In this document: positions 29,802-61,708 of the stretch, one piece after another | Position numbering within the stretch: position 1 is the stretch's first letter | Layout of the letters: every line of letters starts with the position of its first letter | NCBI RefSeq assembly: GCF_013410375.1 | Contig: NZ_JACCFL010000001.1 | Span: 124,001-188,000, forward strand | DNA from: Leifsonia shinshuensis | GTDB taxonomy: Bacteria; Actinomycetota; Actinomycetes; Actinomycetales; Microbacteriaceae | Length of the DNA stretch: 64,000 bases | Reading direction: 5' to 3' | Position numbers and translations under genes: made by a program | The notes under the pieces: model-generated | What the model saw: the letters and a program-made list of their open reading frames with translations, nothing else | Told to the model about the DNA's origin: nothing | Database searches by the model: none

Positions 29802-31279
29802 CCTGGCTGCGGCGCCTGTCGATCACCGCGCGCATCACGATCGGCAGCCTCATCGTCGCCACCCTGTTCGGCCTGGTCGCGGTCGTCGTCATCCGCGTGG
29901 GGGTGTCGTCCATCCTCCACAACGCGACCGTCACCCTCCTCGACAACGACGTGGCCGCCCCGGTCCAGTCGGTCCAGTCGAATCCGACCGGACCGTTCGA
30001 CCTGCCAGGCGGCGGGCAGGAGCTCGCCGTCGTCGACGCGAACGGCGTCATCCTGGACTCCACGCTGCCCACGGCGCTGGAGGACCGGATCGACCGCCTG
30101 CTGGCCCTCCCGCCGACGCCGTCGACCGTGCAGGTCGGCGACGACACGTACGAAGTGCTCGTGAAGGCCGTGCCGACCAAAGCGGGCACCATGCACGTCG
30201 TCGCCGCCCGCAACGACGAGACGACCTCGCTCATCCTCGACCGGCTCACCCTCGCCCTGCTGATCGGCGCGGGCGTCCTGATCCTCGGCTTCGGCGGGGC
30301 GTCCTGGCTGCTGGCGCGTGCGGCGCTGCGGCCGGTCAGCCGGATGCGCGAGCAGGCCGACCGGATCGCCGGCGGCGAGACGGCCGGCAGGGGCGACGAC
30401 GCGGGCCTGCTGACCGTCGGCCCGGCCCAGGACGAGCTGTCCGAGCTGGCGACGACGCTGAACGACCTGATCCGCCGGTTGCGGGCGTCGGCCGACCGCG
30501 AGCGCCAGATGGTGTCCGACGCCAGCCACGAGCTCCGCACGCCGCTGGCCGTGCTGCGCGGCCAGCTGGAGCTGGCGGAGCTGGACGCGGGCGACGCGGA
30601 CGCGCTCCTCGACGACATCCGCTCGTCGCACTCGACCGCCCTGCGGCTGGGGACGCTCGCCAACAACCTGCTCGAGCTGTCGCGCATCGAGGCCGGCCCC
30701 TCCAGCGGACGCATCGACTGGCGGACGCTGGTGGACGAGCTGACCGACGCGATCGACCGCGCGCGCCTGCTGGTCAGCAGCGACGAGGACGACCGGTCGA
30801 TCTCGGTGGACTTCGACTACGACCCCAAGCGCCGCCCGAGCTCGGACTCCCGGATCGCGCTGTCGCCGACCGACTTCGGCCGCATCCTGGACAACCTGCT
30901 CGGCAACGCCATCACGGCGATCCGCAGCCGCGGCGCCCGTTCGGACACCGGCCCGGTGCCGCGGCCGGGCGACGTCGAGCCGTCCGCCCCGGCGGTCGAG
31001 GACGTGGTGAGCGCCGCGTTGCACGTGGAGCCGGACTGGGTCGTCCTCACCGTGCACGACTCCGGGCCCGGCATGCCGGAGGACTTCATCCCGGTGGCAC
31101 TGGACCGGTTCACGCGCGCGGACGGGGCGAGGACGACCTCCCGCGCGGGCGGCGGCGGCGGACTCGGGCTGGCGATCGTGGCCGCGCTGGCGGGCGCCGC
31201 GGGCGGCGGAGTGCAGCTCGCGAACGCGCCGAGCGGCGGCCTCGTGGTCACCGTACGGCTGCCGCTCGTCCGCGCCTGA
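29798..31279 (+). CDS. Sensor histidine kinase
   Basis: The protein of 493 residues has two membrane spans (about residues 12-35 and 148-170) around a small extracellular domain, then a HAMP segment, the dimerisation box with His244 in DASHELRTPLAV, and an ATPase domain (NLLGNAITAI, DSGPGMP, GGGGGLGLAIV). Between the N box and the G1 box there is an unusual stretch of about 35 residues, rich in Pro and acidic residues, that is not part of the standard fold. It is coupled to the response regulator by a GTGA overlap. Its 3' end borders the 52-bp tandem repeat. Confidence 0.9.
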   Translation: MTWLRRLSITARITIGSLIVATLFGLVAVVVIRVGVSSILHNATVTLLDNDVAAPVQSVQSNPTGPFDLPGGGQELAVVDANGVILDSTLPTALEDRIDRLLALPPTPSTVQVGDDTYEVLVKAVPTKAGTMHVVAARNDETTSLILDRLTLALLIGAGVLILGFGGASWLLARAALRPVSRMREQADRIAGGETAGRGDDAGLLTVGPAQDELSELATTLNDLIRRLRASADRERQMVSDASHELRTPLAVLRGQLELAELDAGDADALLDDIRSSHSTALRLGTLANNLLELSRIEAGPSSGRIDWRTLVDELTDAIDRARLLVSSDEDDRSISVDFDYDPKRRPSSDSRIALSPTDFGRILDNLLGNAITAIRSRGARSDTGPVPRPGDVEPSAPAVEDVVSAALHVEPDWVVLTVHDSGPGMPEDFIPVALDRFTRADGARTTSRAGGGGGLGLAIVAALAGAAGGGVQLANAPSGGLVVTVRLPLVRA

Positions 31280-31590
31280 GGCTGCCGCGCCTTCAGTGCC
31301 CGCTGTGGTCGGAGTCCACGCCGGCGCCTGAGAGTCCCGCGCCTTCAGTGCCCGCTGCGGTCGGAGTCCACGCCGGCGCCTGAGAGTCCCGCGCCTTCAG
31401 TGCCCGCTGCGGTCGGAGTCCACGCCGGCGCCTGAGGATCGCGCGCCTTCAGTGCCCGCTGCGGTCCGAGTCCACGCTGGCGCCTGAGGATCGCGCGCCT
31501 TCAGTGCCCGCTGCGGTCCGAGTCCACGCCGGCGCCTGAGGATCGCGCGCCTTCAGTGCCCGCTGCGGTCCGAGTCCACGCCGGCGTCCG
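31272..31590. repeat. 52-bp tandem repeat array (six copies) in a convergent gap
   Basis: A 52-bp unit starting CTTCAGTGCC recurs at exact 52-base steps: 31291, 31343, 31395, 31447, 31499 and 31551. Five copies are complete; the sixth is the last 36 bases of the aldo/keto reductase gene, ending in its stop codon. Units differ at only a few positions, and copies 4-6 share GGTCCGAG against GGTCGGAG in 1-3. Each unit also carries GCGCCTGAG, like the sensor-kinase end at 31272-31280. The unit therefore looks like an amplified junction of the two convergent gene ends. Confidence 0.95.
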
Positions 31591-50944: not shown

Positions 50945-51166
50945 CTCAGCGGTACAACGTCTCCGAACCTCGAGGCCGCAGACCGCCCGTCCCGCCGCGC
51001 ACGCCGCCTGAGCGATACGACCACTCCGGCAACCTCAAGCCTGCACCTTGCCTATCGGGACATCCAGTTTGCTGCGCACGCCGCACGAAACACGTCGCGC
51101 TCGCAGCGCCTCAACCTCAGCGGTACAACCGCTCCGGCACCTCGAGGCCGTAGATCGCCCGCCCGG
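50945..51166. repeat. Degenerate copies of the 3' end of the HAD phosphatase gene
   Basis: The gene end CTCAGCGGTACAAC (51116-51129, with the stop codon TCA at 51117) recurs at 50945-50958 with the following CTCGAGGCC also kept (50970s). A third, weaker copy beginning CTGAGCGATACGACC lies at 51008. The intervening DNA has CGCACGCCGC blocks at 50998 and 51076. The copies fill most of the 267-base gap between menC and this gene, which otherwise holds no gene. Confidence 0.8.
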
Positions 51167-52136
51167 AGTCCCAGATCGCCGCGCATGCGGCGCGGAGCAG
51201 GTCGAGCTCGTCGTCGCCCTCGCTGACGATGCGCACATCGTTGCCGTCGATCGCGACCGTGGCGCTCCCGACCGTGACCGCCCCGTTCTTCGCCGTCTTC
51301 GCGGCCGGGTACGGTTCATTCAGCCCGCGTAGGTCGCCCAGGATGTAGGTCGGGCGCGAGTCGGCGTCCGCCGCCAGGAGCTGCTTGGCGCGGTCGACGC
51401 CCGTGAGCACGAGCACCGAGTCGATGCCGGCCCGGTTGGCGCCGAGGATGTCGGTGTCGAGGCGGTCGCCGATGAACAGCGGCTTGCTCGCCCGGAAGCG
51501 CGCGATGGCCTCGCGGAAGATCGCCACCTCGGGCTTGCCCGCGACCAGCGGCAACCGGCCGGCCGCCGTGTGGACGGCAGAGACCAGGGTGCCGTTGCCC
51601 GGCGCGATGCCGCGGGCGACCGGGATCGTCCAGTCCGTGTTCGTCGCGATCCACGGGCGCTCGGCGTCGCTGCGCCCCTGCAGGGCGAACGCGGCTTCGG
51701 CGAGCTGAGTCCAGCCGACTTCGGGGGCGAAGCCCTGGATCACCGCCGCCGGGTCGTCCTCCGCCGACCGGGTGACCGTGAAGCCGCCCTTCTGGACTTC
51801 GTCCACCAGGCCGTCGCCGCCGACGACGAGGATGGTGGAGCCCGCAGGAACATGCTCGCTCAGGAGCCGGACCGCGGCCTGCGGTGACGTGACGACATCC
51901 GTCGGCTGGGCGCGGAGGCCGAGCTCGCGCAGGTGCTCCGCCACAGACGCGTCGGTCCGCGAGGCGTTGTTCGTGATGTAACCGACACGAACGGTTTCAG
52001 CCGCGCTGTTGAGACTCTCGACCGCATACGGGATGGCGTTCGGGCCCGTGTAGACGACCCCGTCGAGGTCGGCCAGCACCAGGTCGACGCCGGTCAGCGG
52101 GGTCGCGGCGTCACTCGCCCGTCGAAACAGCGCCAT
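51117..52136 (-). CDS. HAD-IIA phosphatase, NagD-like
   Basis: The protein of 339 residues has motif I LADLDGVVYTG, motif II ITNNASRT, and the late motifs GKPEVAIFREA and FIGDRLDTDILGANRAG, with a C2A cap between. Relatives remove phosphate from small phosphorylated waste products such as 2-phosphoglycolate or glycerol phosphate. A C-terminal domain of about 70 residues follows the HAD core. The ATG at 52136 is 12 bases after GGAGG. It overlaps the preceding TPR-like gene by 26 bases. Its 3' end is duplicated downstream. Confidence 0.88.
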   Translation of the reverse strand: MALFRRASDAATPLTGVDLVLADLDGVVYTGPNAIPYAVESLNSAAETVRVGYITNNASRTDASVAEHLRELGLRAQPTDVVTSPQAAVRLLSEHVPAGSTILVVGGDGLVDEVQKGGFTVTRSAEDDPAAVIQGFAPEVGWTQLAEAAFALQGRSDAERPWIATNTDWTIPVARGIAPGNGTLVSAVHTAAGRLPLVAGKPEVAIFREAIARFRASKPLFIGDRLDTDILGANRAGIDSVLVLTGVDRAKQLLAADADSRPTYILGDLRGLNEPYPAAKTAKNGAVTVGSATVAIDGNDVRIVSEGDDELDLLRAACAAIWDSGRAIYGLEVPERLYR

Positions 52137-54492
52137 CGTGCGGCTCACCCTCCACGTCGTCGTCGTTGGCGGCGTCGGTCGCTGTGTCGTCGGCCGCTGT
52201 GTCGTCGGCCACGGCGCCTTCGGCCGCCGCCTCGTCGGCGGGAGCATCGGTCACGACGTCGGCGGCGCGCACGTCACCGGCCACAGCCGTGTCGGCCGCC
52301 GCCGGGTCCACTCCTGCGTCTTCCGTCGAGGCATCGTCGGTGGGCATGTCCTCGGCCAGTGCCTCGTCGGCCGCCGCCACACCGGTGGCAGCCTCCGCGG
52401 TCGTCACGCCGACCATCTCGTCGTTCACGTCTGCGCCGACGGCGTGTGCATCGGTCACGGCCTCGTCGACTGCAGTCGCCGCGCTCGTGTCCTCATCGAC
52501 GGCGTACTCGTCGGTCGTGGGCTCGTCGGTCGCCACCTCGTGCTCCACAGCACCATCGGCCGCACCATCCTCCGCTGACTCCCGGTCCTCCGCGAGATCG
52601 GCATCCGCCTCGTCCTCGAGGGCCACCGCGAACTCGAACTCTTCCTCGATAATGTCCACCGTCTCGAACTCGGCGTCGGCGTGCGCCTCTTCGAGCGCGA
52701 GCTCGGCGCGTTGCGCCCGCTCCCGCCAGGTCGCGGCGTCGGAGTCGCGGCCGAGGGCTTCGAGCACCTCCGCGTACGCGTGGAACAGGTCCGGGCTCCA
52801 GCTGAAGGCACGGTTGGGGTCAAGCTGTGGGATCTCCAGCTCGGCGAGCGCGGCTTCCTCCTGGCCGAGGTCGAGGCGTGCGCCGGACATGGCGATCGCC
52901 AGCGATACCTGGACGTCGGACGGGAGTGCGCTCCGGTCGACCGACCGGCCCAGCTCGAGAGCGCGGTCGGGCCGTCCCACCCCGCGCTCGCTGTCCACCA
53001 TCAGGGCGATCTGGTCGTTCGAGCCGGTGATCCGGCGGTACGTGCGGAGCTCCCGCAGCGCGAGCGCGAAGTCGCCGGTGGCGTACGCCGTGATCGCCAG
53101 GGTCTCGCGGACGACACCGATACGCCCGGCGCGGCGCGCGGCCGACAGGGCGTGACGGTGCGCGAGCTCCGGGTCGCTCTCGATGAGCCGGGAGGCCATC
53201 ACGAGGTGCTGCGCGACCCAGTCGGCGTTGTCCTTGCTGAGCGTCTTCAGTTCGACGCGCGCCTCCTTGGGCAGCTCGCGTGCCTCGACATCGAACGGGA
53301 GGTCGGGGTCGTCGTGCCGAGGACGCACCGACCGCAGCTCCCTGGCCAGCGCCGCCTCGGCGTCAAGCTCGTACTCGCGCTCTCGCGCGTCACGATCGCC
53401 GCGCGCCGGTCGGCCGTCCCTGGTCCACAGCTTGTCGTCCGAACGGCCGTAGCCCTTCGCTCCGCCCCCTGCCGGTCGCCCACCGCGGTCGCCCTGACCG
53501 CCGCGCCCGCCGCCGCCATCACGGCTGCCGGCGAAACCACGCGACCCGGACGTGTCCCGCGACCGCGTGGCATCCCACGAACCGGAGCGCTTCGCGTCGC
53601 GGCCCTGTTGACCGTCGCGCCGCTGGCCATCGCGGAACTGTCCGCCGCGGTTCTCACCGTCGCGGCTCCAACCACCGCCCTGACGCTGTCCTTCGCGCCC
53701 GTGACCACCGTGGCCCTGCCCGTCACGGTTCCAGCCGCCCTCGCGGCGCTGTCCATCACGAGCCTGAGCACCATGGCCCTGCCCGTCACGGTGCCAACCA
53801 CCCTCACGGCGCTGTCCATCACGGCGCTGCCCGTCGCGGCTCTGACCGTACCGGGCCTGGTTGTCACGGTGCTGTCCGTCGCGGGGCTGCGCACCACGGT
53901 TCCATTGCCCGTCACGGCTCTGCCCGTCACGATTCCAGCTGCCCTCGCGGCGCTGCCCGTCACGCGACTGCGCGCCCCGATCCTGCCCGTCACGGTTCCA
54001 GCTGCCCTCGCGACGCTGCCCATCACGGCCCTGGCCGGACCGGGCCTGTCCATCGCGGGACTGCGCACCACGGGCCCACTGCCCGTCACGACCTTGGCCA
54101 TCACGGCGCTGGCCGTCACGGCTCCATTGGCTGTCGCGGCTCTGCCCATCGCGACGCTGGCCGTCGCGCGACTGTCCGTAACCGCCCTGCCCATCGCGAC
54201 GCTGGCCGTCGCGCGACTGTCCGTAGCCGCCCTGCCCGTCGCGGCGCTGAGCTCCGCCACGCTGACCGTCGCGGTTCCACTGGCCGTCACGAGGCCGGCT
54301 CGGGGCGCCGGTGCGGTGACCACCGTCGCCGCCCTTCGCCCGGTCGTAGCCCTGGCCCGAATCGCGACGCGGAGCTCCCCCTGTGCGGGCGTCGTCCCGA
54401 CCGGCGCCGCTGCGTGGGCGGCCGGCGCCTCGACCGCGGCCGTCGCCGCTCGAGGCGGACGTCCTGTCGTCGTCTGCCGGTGTATCGCTCAC
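52111..54492 (-). CDS. RDGQ-repeat disordered protein with TPR-like core and acidic tail
   Basis: This 793-residue protein has three parts. Residues 1-365 are low-complexity and basic, with about 24 exact RDGQ units (residues 68-308) in larger blocks such as RRDGQGGYGQS and REGSWNRDGQ; Trp and Tyr are spaced through it. Residues 370-605 are helical, with TPR-like pairs (HALSAARRAGRIGVV, ALALRELRTYRRITG, HAYAEVLEALGRDSDAATW). Residues 607-793 are very acidic and Ala/Thr-rich. AGGAGAAGTC precedes the GTG. The core resembles proteins found next to NagD-like phosphatases in other actinomycetes. No function is proven; the N-terminus resembles RGG-type RNA-binding regions. Confidence 0.8.
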   Translation of the reverse strand: MSDTPADDDRTSASSGDGRGRGAGRPRSGAGRDDARTGGAPRRDSGQGYDRAKGGDGGHRTGAPSRPRDGQWNRDGQRGGAQRRDGQGGYGQSRDGQRRDGQGGYGQSRDGQRRDGQSRDSQWSRDGQRRDGQGRDGQWARGAQSRDGQARSGQGRDGQRREGSWNRDGQDRGAQSRDGQRREGSWNRDGQSRDGQWNRGAQPRDGQHRDNQARYGQSRDGQRRDGQRREGGWHRDGQGHGAQARDGQRREGGWNRDGQGHGGHGREGQRQGGGWSRDGENRGGQFRDGQRRDGQQGRDAKRSGSWDATRSRDTSGSRGFAGSRDGGGGRGGQGDRGGRPAGGGAKGYGRSDDKLWTRDGRPARGDRDAREREYELDAEAALARELRSVRPRHDDPDLPFDVEARELPKEARVELKTLSKDNADWVAQHLVMASRLIESDPELAHRHALSAARRAGRIGVVRETLAITAYATGDFALALRELRTYRRITGSNDQIALMVDSERGVGRPDRALELGRSVDRSALPSDVQVSLAIAMSGARLDLGQEEAALAELEIPQLDPNRAFSWSPDLFHAYAEVLEALGRDSDAATWRERAQRAELALEEAHADAEFETVDIIEEEFEFAVALEDEADADLAEDRESAEDGAADGAVEHEVATDEPTTDEYAVDEDTSAATAVDEAVTDAHAVGADVNDEMVGVTTAEAATGVAAADEALAEDMPTDDASTEDAGVDPAAADTAVAGDVRAADVVTDAPADEAAAEGAVADDTAADDTATDAANDDDVEGEPHDGAVSTGE

Positions 54493-54585
54493 GACTTCTC
54501 CTGTCGGGTGCCGGGGTTTCCGCCCAGCCTATGTGCGTGGATCGCGCAAGGAACCGCCCGCGCGAAAATGTGCCGTTAACGCGAA

Positions 54586-54611
54586 ATGGCCACCCATCAC
54601 TGGGTGGCCAT
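54586..54611 (-). terminator. Intrinsic terminator of the rrn operon
   Basis: An 11-bp perfect stem (ATGGCCACCCA at 54586-54596 and its complement at 54601-54611) with a 4-base loop lies just after the 5S gene. In the minus-strand direction it is followed by TTTC. It separates the rRNA genes from the RDGQ protein gene. Confidence 0.8.
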
Positions 54612-54621
54612 CTCACAAAGA

Positions 54622-54741
54622 AGTCCGGCGGTGTCCTACTCTCCCACAGGGTCCCCCCTGCAGTACCATCGGCGCAGAGAGTCTTAGCTTCCGGGTTCGG
54701 AATGTAACCGGGCGTTTCCCTCTCGCTATGGCCGCCGAAAC
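54622..54741 (-). rRNA. rrf: 5S ribosomal RNA
   Basis: The minus strand reads GTTTCGGCGGCCATAGCGAG at the 5' end and ends CACCGCCGGACTT, with the internal CCGAACCCGGAAGCTAAG loop typical of 5S rRNA. Length about 120 bases. Ends are placed by eye. Confidence 0.93.
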
Positions 54742-54830: not shown

Positions 54831-54881
54831 TCTTGCCCCTCATACCCGCCTTACAACGGTATGAGAGTAGTGATTATCAAA

Positions 54882-57985
<3,104 letters not shown>

Positions 57986-58124
57986 ATCACATGAGTTTTA
58001 GAATCGATCGGCCCAACTCCGTTGCAAATAAATGCTGTCGAAGATGAGCAGATTGACCAATGATCTATCAGTACATAAGTACTGTGATCATCTATGTGAT
58101 TCGAACCCGAAGGTTCGAATCTAA

Positions 58125-58425: not shown

Positions 58426-59957
<1,532 letters not shown>

Positions 59958-60625: not shown

Positions 60626-61708
60626 TCAGGATCCGAGCCCGGAGTAGGCGTGCAGTCCGTGGAAGAACACGTTGACCACGCCGAAGTTGAAGAGCACCGC
60701 GGCGAAGCCGATGATCGCGAGCCATGCGGAACGGGATCCGCGCCACCCGCGGGTCGCCCGCGCGTGGATGTAGCCGGCGTAGATCACCCAGATGATGAAC
60801 GTCCAGACTTCCTTGGTGTCCCAACCCCAATACCGGCCCCACGCCTTCTCGGCCCAGATGGCTCCGGCGATCAGCGTGAAGGTCCAGGCGATGAAGCCGA
60901 CGATGTTGATCCGGTACGCCAGGTTCTCCAGAGCGACCGCGCTCGGAAGGGTCGACAGGAACCGGAACTGCTGCGGGCGCGACTCCGCGACCTGGCGTTC
61001 GCGCCGGTACTGCAGCAGCTGGAGTCCGGACAACGCGAAGCCGAGGGCGAAGAACGCCGTGCCCAGCACGGCCACGATGATGTGGATCACCAGCCAGTAC
61101 GACTGCAGCGCCGGCTGCAGCGGGACCACCGGGACGTAGTACCGCAGCAGCGCGATCCCCTGGAGCACCAGGACCAGCCCGATGATGAACGTCCCCAGGT
61201 ACTTGATCTCCCACTCGAGGTTCGCGACCAGGAAGACGCCGACGATGACCAGCGTGCCGGTCATCGAGAACTCCCACATGTTGGCCCACGGCACCCGGTC
61301 GGCTGCGATGCCGCGGAGCACGGTCGCGATGAGGTGGAAGCCCCAGCCGGCGATGGTGAGGCCGAACGCCCACTTGATCGACGCCGACGAGGCGGCGCCG
61401 TTCATCACATCGTCCTCGAGGCGCGTGCTGATCCGGCTGGACAGTCGGCCGAGCGCGGAGGACGGCGGGGCCTGCGGGGGTGCGTCCGCGCTGCCGCCGG
61501 ACACGGACAGCCGGGCGGCTGTGGCGCCGACGGGCGTGGCCACCTCCGCTCTGCGCGCGACGGCGCTGGGGACCAGCGCGGCCTCCTCGGCCGTTGCTCT
61601 GGCTCCCCTACGGGCGAGGTCGAGCGCGAACGCGATGAACGCGGCCGCGTAGAACCCCATCGCCACATAGATGAAGACCGTGGACAGCTGGGACAGGGTT
61701 TCGGTCAC
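60626..61708 (-). CDS. resC: Cytochrome c biogenesis protein ResC/CcsB
   Basis: ResC, with ResB, delivers heme to apocytochrome c outside the membrane (System II). The protein of 360 residues has an N-terminal span, a cytoplasmic loop of about 65 residues, then about seven spans. The heme-handling WWD motif reads WGRYWGWDTKEVWTFIIW, and conserved His residues lie in QSYWLVIHIIVAVLG and YIHARATRGW. The GTG start is 9 bases after the resB stop; a TAGGCT box (complement of 61715-61720) that overlaps the resB stop lies 6 bases before it, so an additional leaderless transcript is possible. Confidence 0.92.
   Translation of the reverse strand: MTETLSQLSTVFIYVAMGFYAAAFIAFALDLARRGARATAEEAALVPSAVARRAEVATPVGATAARLSVSGGSADAPPQAPPSSALGRLSSRISTRLEDDVMNGAASSASIKWAFGLTIAGWGFHLIATVLRGIAADRVPWANMWEFSMTGTLVIVGVFLVANLEWEIKYLGTFIIGLVLVLQGIALLRYYVPVVPLQPALQSYWLVIHIIVAVLGTAFFALGFALSGLQLLQYRRERQVAESRPQQFRFLSTLPSAVALENLAYRINIVGFIAWTFTLIAGAIWAEKAWGRYWGWDTKEVWTFIIWVIYAGYIHARATRGWRGSRSAWLAIIGFAAVLFNFGVVNVFFHGLHAYSGLGS

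Follow-up and report, generated by a model that had tools for sequence, protein, structure and literature searches.

The window analysed here, a stretch of 64,000 nucleotides (nt) from Leifsonia shinshuensis (contig NZ_JACCFL010000001.1, positions 124,001 to 188,000), carries a gene whose predicted product joins an arginine-rich disordered arm, a helical tetratricopeptide repeat (TPR) core and an acidic tail, and which lies between a ribosomal RNA (rrn) operon and a HAD-IIA phosphatase gene. We tentatively propose that this product may be an actinobacterial rRNA- or ribosome-associated TPR adaptor that would work together with the phosphatase. An RNA-related role is favoured, as far as sequence can tell, by the preference for arginine in the arm, by the linkage to rrn and by the recovery of an orthologue with RNA polymerase in affinity purification-mass spectrometry (AP-MS), and it is the genomic position and the composition that lend this idea weight. 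That a protein gene keeps its place behind rrn across most of the class, and in many genomes outside it, strongly hints that rRNA synthesis, a phosphatase and a disordered arginine-rich adaptor are linked in a way not recognised so far, and it makes the family, which by gene order includes the mycobacterial Rv1691, a concrete candidate for dedicated bacterial protein scaffolds at rrn loci.

In the mechanism that we propose, the arm would make many weak arginine contacts that hold the protein on nascent rRNA, pre-ribosomes or the transcribing polymerase, and the surface of the TPR core would bind a conserved partner, most likely the phosphatase. Proximity to rrn would link the dose of the protein to rRNA synthesis, either by read-through past a terminator-like hairpin, by a promoter of its own, or by both. 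The repeat units of the arm turn over, with composition and net charge staying similar.

Linkage to the rRNA operon

The gene is present in all 28 genomes of the window's genus that were searched. With the core alignment A2 as query, matches to the core were obtained in 144/150 genomes of the family (135/137 of the good ones), in 223/246 genomes of the class (209/221 of the good ones) and in 104 of the 296 genomes of a phylum-wide draw, 78 of these lying outside the class.

The first-pass annotation had placed the gene directly downstream of an rrn operon, and the 5S rRNA gene indeed ends 130 nt upstream of the start codon. The same order recurs in 153 of 175 loci with a same-strand 5S gene upstream (152 within 700 nt and 142 within 300 nt; median 119 nt), these loci being distinct by core sequence, having at least 200 nt upstream and leaning to the window's genus and family. 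Among the 22 loci that gave no 5S match, 18 were rescanned with Rfam; one (L155) has a 23S gene directly upstream, and no rRNA was found in the available stretch for the other 17, with L085, L127, L190 and L218 outside the rescan. At L155 (1-2587) the Rfam 23S model extends past the start of a frame in which the TPR protein and the phosphatase are fused, and no 5S was called there. The link spans the contig origin at L120 (G458).

When 5S genes were located with Rfam in 30 complete or near-complete genomes, every TPR core lay at most 2.5 kb from a same-strand 5S gene in 27 of them, with 0.02 genomes expected under random placement; the set was chosen by hand for few contigs and for spread after the link had been seen in many genomes, and known non-linked ones were included. 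Two of the remaining genomes have distances of 3.4 and 5.7 kb between core and 5S, and the third (G177) has no rrn close to the core. In one genome (G408) both 5S genes are followed by a TPR copy (L128, L150, L259, L273). Outside the class, 13 of 20 genomes drawn from the 78 carry a same-strand 5S at most 1.9 kb upstream of the core, 11 of them at most 0.6 kb; a 16S gene lies upstream of the core at L287, only a distant 16S end at L295, and no rRNA was found beside the core at L285, L286, L290, L303 and L304. Four further loci of other classes comprise three with the 5S link (L060, L061, L062) and one without it (L059). Because the genomes are related by descent, none of these linkage counts can be read as a set of independent events. 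Besides, a group I intron interrupts a 23S rRNA gene at L288 (1420-1721), in an actinobacterial genome from a different class.

On the far side of the operon, the position upstream of 16S was intended as a negative control. It holds tyrS-like frames in 12 of 20 fetched genomes, with one example confirmed as tyrS by NCBIfam and with L257 unreadable, its 16S not being found in the stretch. No tyrS was found in the window or in two further members of the genus, and in the window ccsB (60626-61708) lies upstream of rrn.

The M. tuberculosis operon reads lprJ, Rv1691, Rv1692, Rv1693, tlyA, ppnK and recN (PMC3072309), and mycobacteria with a second operon have rrnB downstream of tyrS (PMC10218544); together these two gene orders suggest that rrnB once stood between tyrS and the TPR gene and has been lost from single-rrn mycobacteria. 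A literature search, with most subscription journals outside its coverage, returned no paper describing the rrn-TPR linkage and no functional study of the TPR family.

In 143 of 152 loci the first 60 nt past the 5S gene form a terminator-like hairpin between 5S and gene, with a folding z-score below -2 against mononucleotide shuffles. Within the genus, 20 of 27 species have a TA[AG][AG][CG]T hexamer at -38 to -41 from the start, which suggests a possible promoter of the TPR gene itself. The main stem and the start codon are less than 45 nt apart in 30 of 153 loci and less than 35 nt apart in 15 (median 73 nt); where the distance is below 45 nt a separate full promoter would be cramped, so that read-through from rrn is plausible.

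The M. smegmatis orthologue, MSMEG_3754, is among 275 proteins that co-purified with cross-linked RNA polymerase beta in AP-MS, where it is placed with the RNA-polymerase-associated proteins, no DNA having been recovered with it (PMC7092591), and it also appears in a ClpC1 interactome table (PMC10433963). On these grounds the protein could act with RNA polymerase as an adaptor that influences how rrn is transcribed or how transcription ends at the hairpin, and it could possibly tune its own read-through, a reading that would agree with the AP-MS match, with the hairpin between 5S and gene and with the little promoter room in the loci of short distance. We consider it highly improbable, since the AP-MS list is broad, no elongation or antitermination factor family was matched in Pfam or NCBIfam, and most loci have room for a promoter, the genus bearing a promoter-like hexamer.

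Composition and turnover of the N-terminal arm

The open reading frame proposed in the first-pass annotation could be confirmed and is encoded on the minus strand (Table 1), and every one of the 27 genus loci whose 5' end is intact has a GTG start right behind a purine-rich Shine-Dalgarno sequence. Nearly all residues 1-357 and 624-793 of the AlphaFold2 model have a pLDDT (the predicted local confidence score) below 50 and no secondary structure assigned. An N-terminus of about 24 RDGQ repeats, almost wholly R, D, G and Q with spaced aromatics, had been described; the repeat count is exactly 24 in residues 1-365, and these hold 79 R/K and 52 D/E (net +27), 18 aromatics and 4 RGG. The basic character and the spacing of aromatics hold up, but the four named residues make up 70% of the arm, and the wording was overstated to that extent. 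The suggested likeness to RGG regions fails if a strict RGG box of clustered RGG/RG motifs is meant, and we reject that assignment: four RGG occur in 365 residues, and RG and GR dipeptides reach 0.59 of expectation (mean 0.77 over 100 arms of at least 150 residues). The formation of condensates, also raised in the first-pass annotation, would be a putative property of the arm, its composition and predicted disorder being what the analysis covered on this point. With the arm as query, the sole other match in the genome had an E-value of 1.48, so that no second RDGQ-like arm was found, the composition correction of HMMER being a caveat to this search.

All 27 species of the genus whose 5' end is intact, that of the window included, have an arm of 223-404 residues with a net charge of +20 to +30. 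The RDGQ unit itself occurs 24 times in the window protein, at most 15 times elsewhere and not at all in seven species, which bear other units such as APRDGYRGDR (L010) and RPAREWKPRSDDG (L028). The comparison of repeat lengths across relatives that had been called for therefore has a divided outcome, in that the arginine-rich composition is kept throughout and the RDGQ unit is not; a repeat region missing from most close relatives, which would have spoken against the idea, is not what is seen as regards composition.

Alignments of the arm DNA in 14 close species pairs, with members in common, contain 82 gaps, 78 of them a multiple of three in length, and in each pair third-position changes outnumber both first- and second-position changes. 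Because gaps keep the frame and third positions vary most, the arm is, on this pattern of change, translated and under constraint, and we reject the explanation of the repeat frame as a non-coding artefact of high GC content; long open frames are present on the opposite strand too. The net charge of the genus arms (mean +22.5, standard deviation 2.7, with a slightly different arm boundary) varies less than in all 2000 block-resampled sets (mean standard deviation 5.4), and this narrow spread, among relatives that are not independent, is suggestive of a constraint on the charge of the arm.

Of the 155 distinct homologues that could be used, 152 have an arm with a positive net charge. Loci at contig edges, without a start that has a Shine-Dalgarno score of at least 4, with masked letters or with a short core were excluded from the charge counts, as were duplicates; start sites were chosen by rule and may be wrong, and tails were counted from the end of the model, which misses a few residues. 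The mean net charge is 22 for arms of 200-300 residues vs 27-29 for arms of 400-800 residues, and for arms of at least 200 residues length correlates with charge at a Spearman coefficient of +0.55 and with charge density at -0.61. Three Nocardia cyriacigeorgica loci (L205, L208, L211), with arms of 677-740 residues and a net charge of only +5 to +15, are exceptions to the charge pattern. The ratio R/(R+K) at 50-60% GC is 0.92 in the arm vs 0.67 in the core (n=15 loci), with a small gap at 60-65% GC (0.86 vs 0.81, n=13 loci), and the choice of arginine over lysine in the arm exceeds what base composition gives in moderate-GC loci. Arginine has been reported as enriched in low-complexity regions of RNA-related bacterial proteins (PMC6821194).

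The turnover of the units could also mean that the arm is a passenger that is prone to slippage and under little constraint, its repeats expanding beside a heavily transcribed locus with only frame and solubility selected and with no specific binding. The differing units and lengths among genus species fit this, as do first- and second-position changes about tenfold commoner in the arm than in the core (L001/L002), the short arms in several mycobacterial loci, and the weak dependence of net charge on arm length in the genus, which falls short of significance (6.8% of the resampled sets gave a value as low). On the other hand, the positive charge in nearly all homologues, the spread in the genus below every resampled set and the preference for arginine at moderate GC speak against a passenger arm, and we regard it as quite unlikely.

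The public record obscures this protein, as the arm is absent from the model and relatives bear misleading labels: the model of the window protein (P0136) has 405 residues and begins at residue 389, with the repeat arm left out, and we reject the source labels "primosomal protein" and "23S rRNA pseudouridine2605 synthase" on relatives, for which no supporting family match was found. The gene models of the window protein and of a near relative (P0171, a Leifsonia shinshuensis protein with 98% identity over 86% of the core query) both begin after the arm. The disordered arms of this TPR family may be under-counted in databases.

The TPR core, the acidic tail and the phosphatase

The core is TPR-like and helical as had been read from the sequence, being all helical in the AlphaFold2 model, and the leading Protein Data Bank (PDB) matches from Foldseek and VIA-align are mostly TPR proteins; the fold comparisons support the TPR fold only, with no functional relative among the matches. 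Pfam at E<=0.01 gave TPR_5 in 23 and TPR_12 in 23 of 57 aligned homologues, and for the window protein TPR_14 alone (E 0.51), with no NCBIfam family at E<=1. Nine residues (R457, R462, E463, Y470, R487, D500, R503, G506 and D541) have a weighted conservation that rounds to 1.00 over 155 cores (effective number 74). Since charged residues of the core are invariant, they suggest that it may bind one conserved ligand.

The C-terminal 187 residues are strongly acidic, in line with the earlier claim (Table 1). That the tail could pair with the basic arm had been proposed as well, and as a family standard this falls away, for 19 of 90 homologues with an arm of at least 200 residues have a tail above -10. 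Charge pairing as the mechanism of the family was rejected on these 19 homologues, among them four loci (L181, L187, L188, L189) with arms of 550-607 residues and tails of -5 to -8. Taken over all homologues counted (n=150, related to one another and so not independent), tail charge falls as arm charge rises (Spearman -0.59). The acidic tail is, judging from these homologues, not a conserved part of the family and would rather act as a lineage-specific modulator.

The overlap with a phosphatase gene stands as claimed, the start codon of the latter lying inside the end of the TPR gene (Table 1). The best PDB match of the HAD protein is the glycerol 3-phosphate phosphatase 4i9f (E 1.5e-63, residues 18-326), which we take to be Rv1692, and its Pfam matches are Hydrolase_6, Hydrolase_like and GNAT_like. 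The overlap is 26 nt in 26 of 28 genus loci and 23 nt in the other 2. TPR and HAD stand in one uninterrupted frame at 11 loci (L052, L133-L136, L154-L157, L162, L163), belonging to 10 genomes that include Gordonia and Williamsia (L136 and L154 are the same genome, Gordonia hirsuta); these loci come from a scan with a fusion as query and their share is no estimate of frequency. Some fusions also occur in genomes of the genus that holds G177, a genome close to M. lacus. Because the two genes are fused in some loci and overlap in others, this arrangement argues for a joint action or association of the two predicted proteins.

Further downstream, 21 stretches including the window hold a HAD gene in 19, a TlyA-family rRNA methyltransferase in 16, NAD kinase in 15 and RecN in 15, one example each having been named by NCBIfam; no tlyA was found behind the window's own HAD gene within the 6.5 kb compared. 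Between the TPR gene and HAD or TlyA, a single-stranded-DNA-binding-like frame was seen at L270, L271, L272, L274, L275 and L276, and the sole one scanned (L274) fell below the NCBIfam cut-offs.

The main rival to an RNA-related adaptor is that the protein serves chiefly as a subunit that regulates or scaffolds the HAD-IIA glycerol-3-phosphate phosphatase in a metabolic complex, its arm serving to solubilise or localise it and its position behind rrn being frozen and giving high expression. The overlap in all 28 genus loci, the single-frame fusions, a HAD gene on the same strand in the 19 downstream stretches and the homology to 4i9f all agree with such a subunit. However, the TPR gene of G344 (L272) lies behind rrn with no HAD found within 6.5 kb, one copy in G408 (L273) is without HAD (in the other, L150, HAD follows at 425 nt), HAD lies about 1.4 kb from the TPR gene in two genomes of family f5 (L141, L142), and there is no metabolic reason for an arginine-rich arm. 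We hold this reading to be unlikely on balance.

Several observations weigh against our preferred reading of an rRNA- or ribosome-associated adaptor. No RNA-binding domain was found in the protein, and its partner could be purely metabolic. Arms are only 34-72 residues long in four split-gene loci of genus g9 and 0-20 residues in some Gordonia-type fusions, and G177 keeps the TPR gene with no rrn nearby. As tyrS beyond rrn is also conserved, the rrn-TPR linkage belongs to a larger ancestral block and may be part of that old block instead of a direct tie. The length of the AP-MS list implies low specificity (PMC7092591). Given the hairpin that separates the genes, the possible promoter in the genus and the room for one in most loci, co-transcription with rrn stays a proposal. 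A bolder form of the adaptor reading would have a nucleolus-like organiser of actinobacterial rRNA synthesis, made from a message of the rrn locus; its arm would bind pre-rRNA as it is transcribed and thereby gather the protein around its own operon, with the phosphatase and maturation enzymes such as TlyA brought in by the TPR core. We think this very unlikely.

Table 1. Features of the locus, with positions counted along the window
Feature	Position	Strand	Remarks
TPR/IDR (intrinsically disordered region) gene	52111..54492	minus	793 residues; GTG start at 54492
Shine-Dalgarno AGGAG	54498..54502	minus	related sequences elsewhere in the genus
N-terminal disordered R/G/D/Q-rich arm	53398..54492	minus	residues 1-365, net +27
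Stretch with 24 RDGQ units, first to last	53608..54291	minus	count, sequence, tandem repeats
TPR solenoid core as folded	52636..53337	minus	residues 386-619; mean pLDDT 93.4 (AlphaFold2)
Acidic disordered tail	52114..52674	minus	residues 607-793, net -60
HAD-IIA phosphatase gene	51117..52136	minus	ATG at 52136; overlaps TPR gene by 26 nt
TAGGCT, possible -10 of own promoter	54526..54531	minus	consensus match only
Inverted repeat, terminator-like hairpin without long T-run	54586..54611	minus	directly after 5S
5S rRNA	54623..54739	minus	sole 5S copy found in the genome (G000)
23S rRNA	54873..57986	minus	
16S rRNA	58432..59955	minus	

Elsewhere in the window, a 52-bp tandem repeat lies at 31272-31586 (6.1 copies, 96% matches).

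Comparison with known systems

Among structurally related proteins, MamA (3vty) and TTC0263 (2pl2) have 10% and 18% identity, and the TPR fold in common with them is uninformative on function. With RNA-binding proteins of the RGG/RG-box type the window protein shares disorder rich in R and G, spaced aromatics and few lysines; it differs in that its units are RDGQ or RDD-like, RG and GR are not enriched, and about two acidic residues stand against three basic ones. The likeness to the glycerol-3-phosphate phosphatase 4i9f belongs to the product of the neighbouring gene, which forms one protein with TPR in the 10 genomes with fusions.

The closest relation is to the mycobacterial Rv1691 and MSMEG_3754. 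The core is homologous to those of mycobacterial TPR proteins, and L283 has the order TPR, HAD, tlyA, NAD kinase and recN as in the Rv1691 operon (PMC3072309), whereas the mycobacterial split-gene loci have short arms and the acidic tail is absent from them. A homologous core, judged with a class-wide model and by named mycobacterial homologues, and the HAD-tlyA-nadK-recN neighbourhood place the protein in the orthologous group of Rv1691 and MSMEG_3754.

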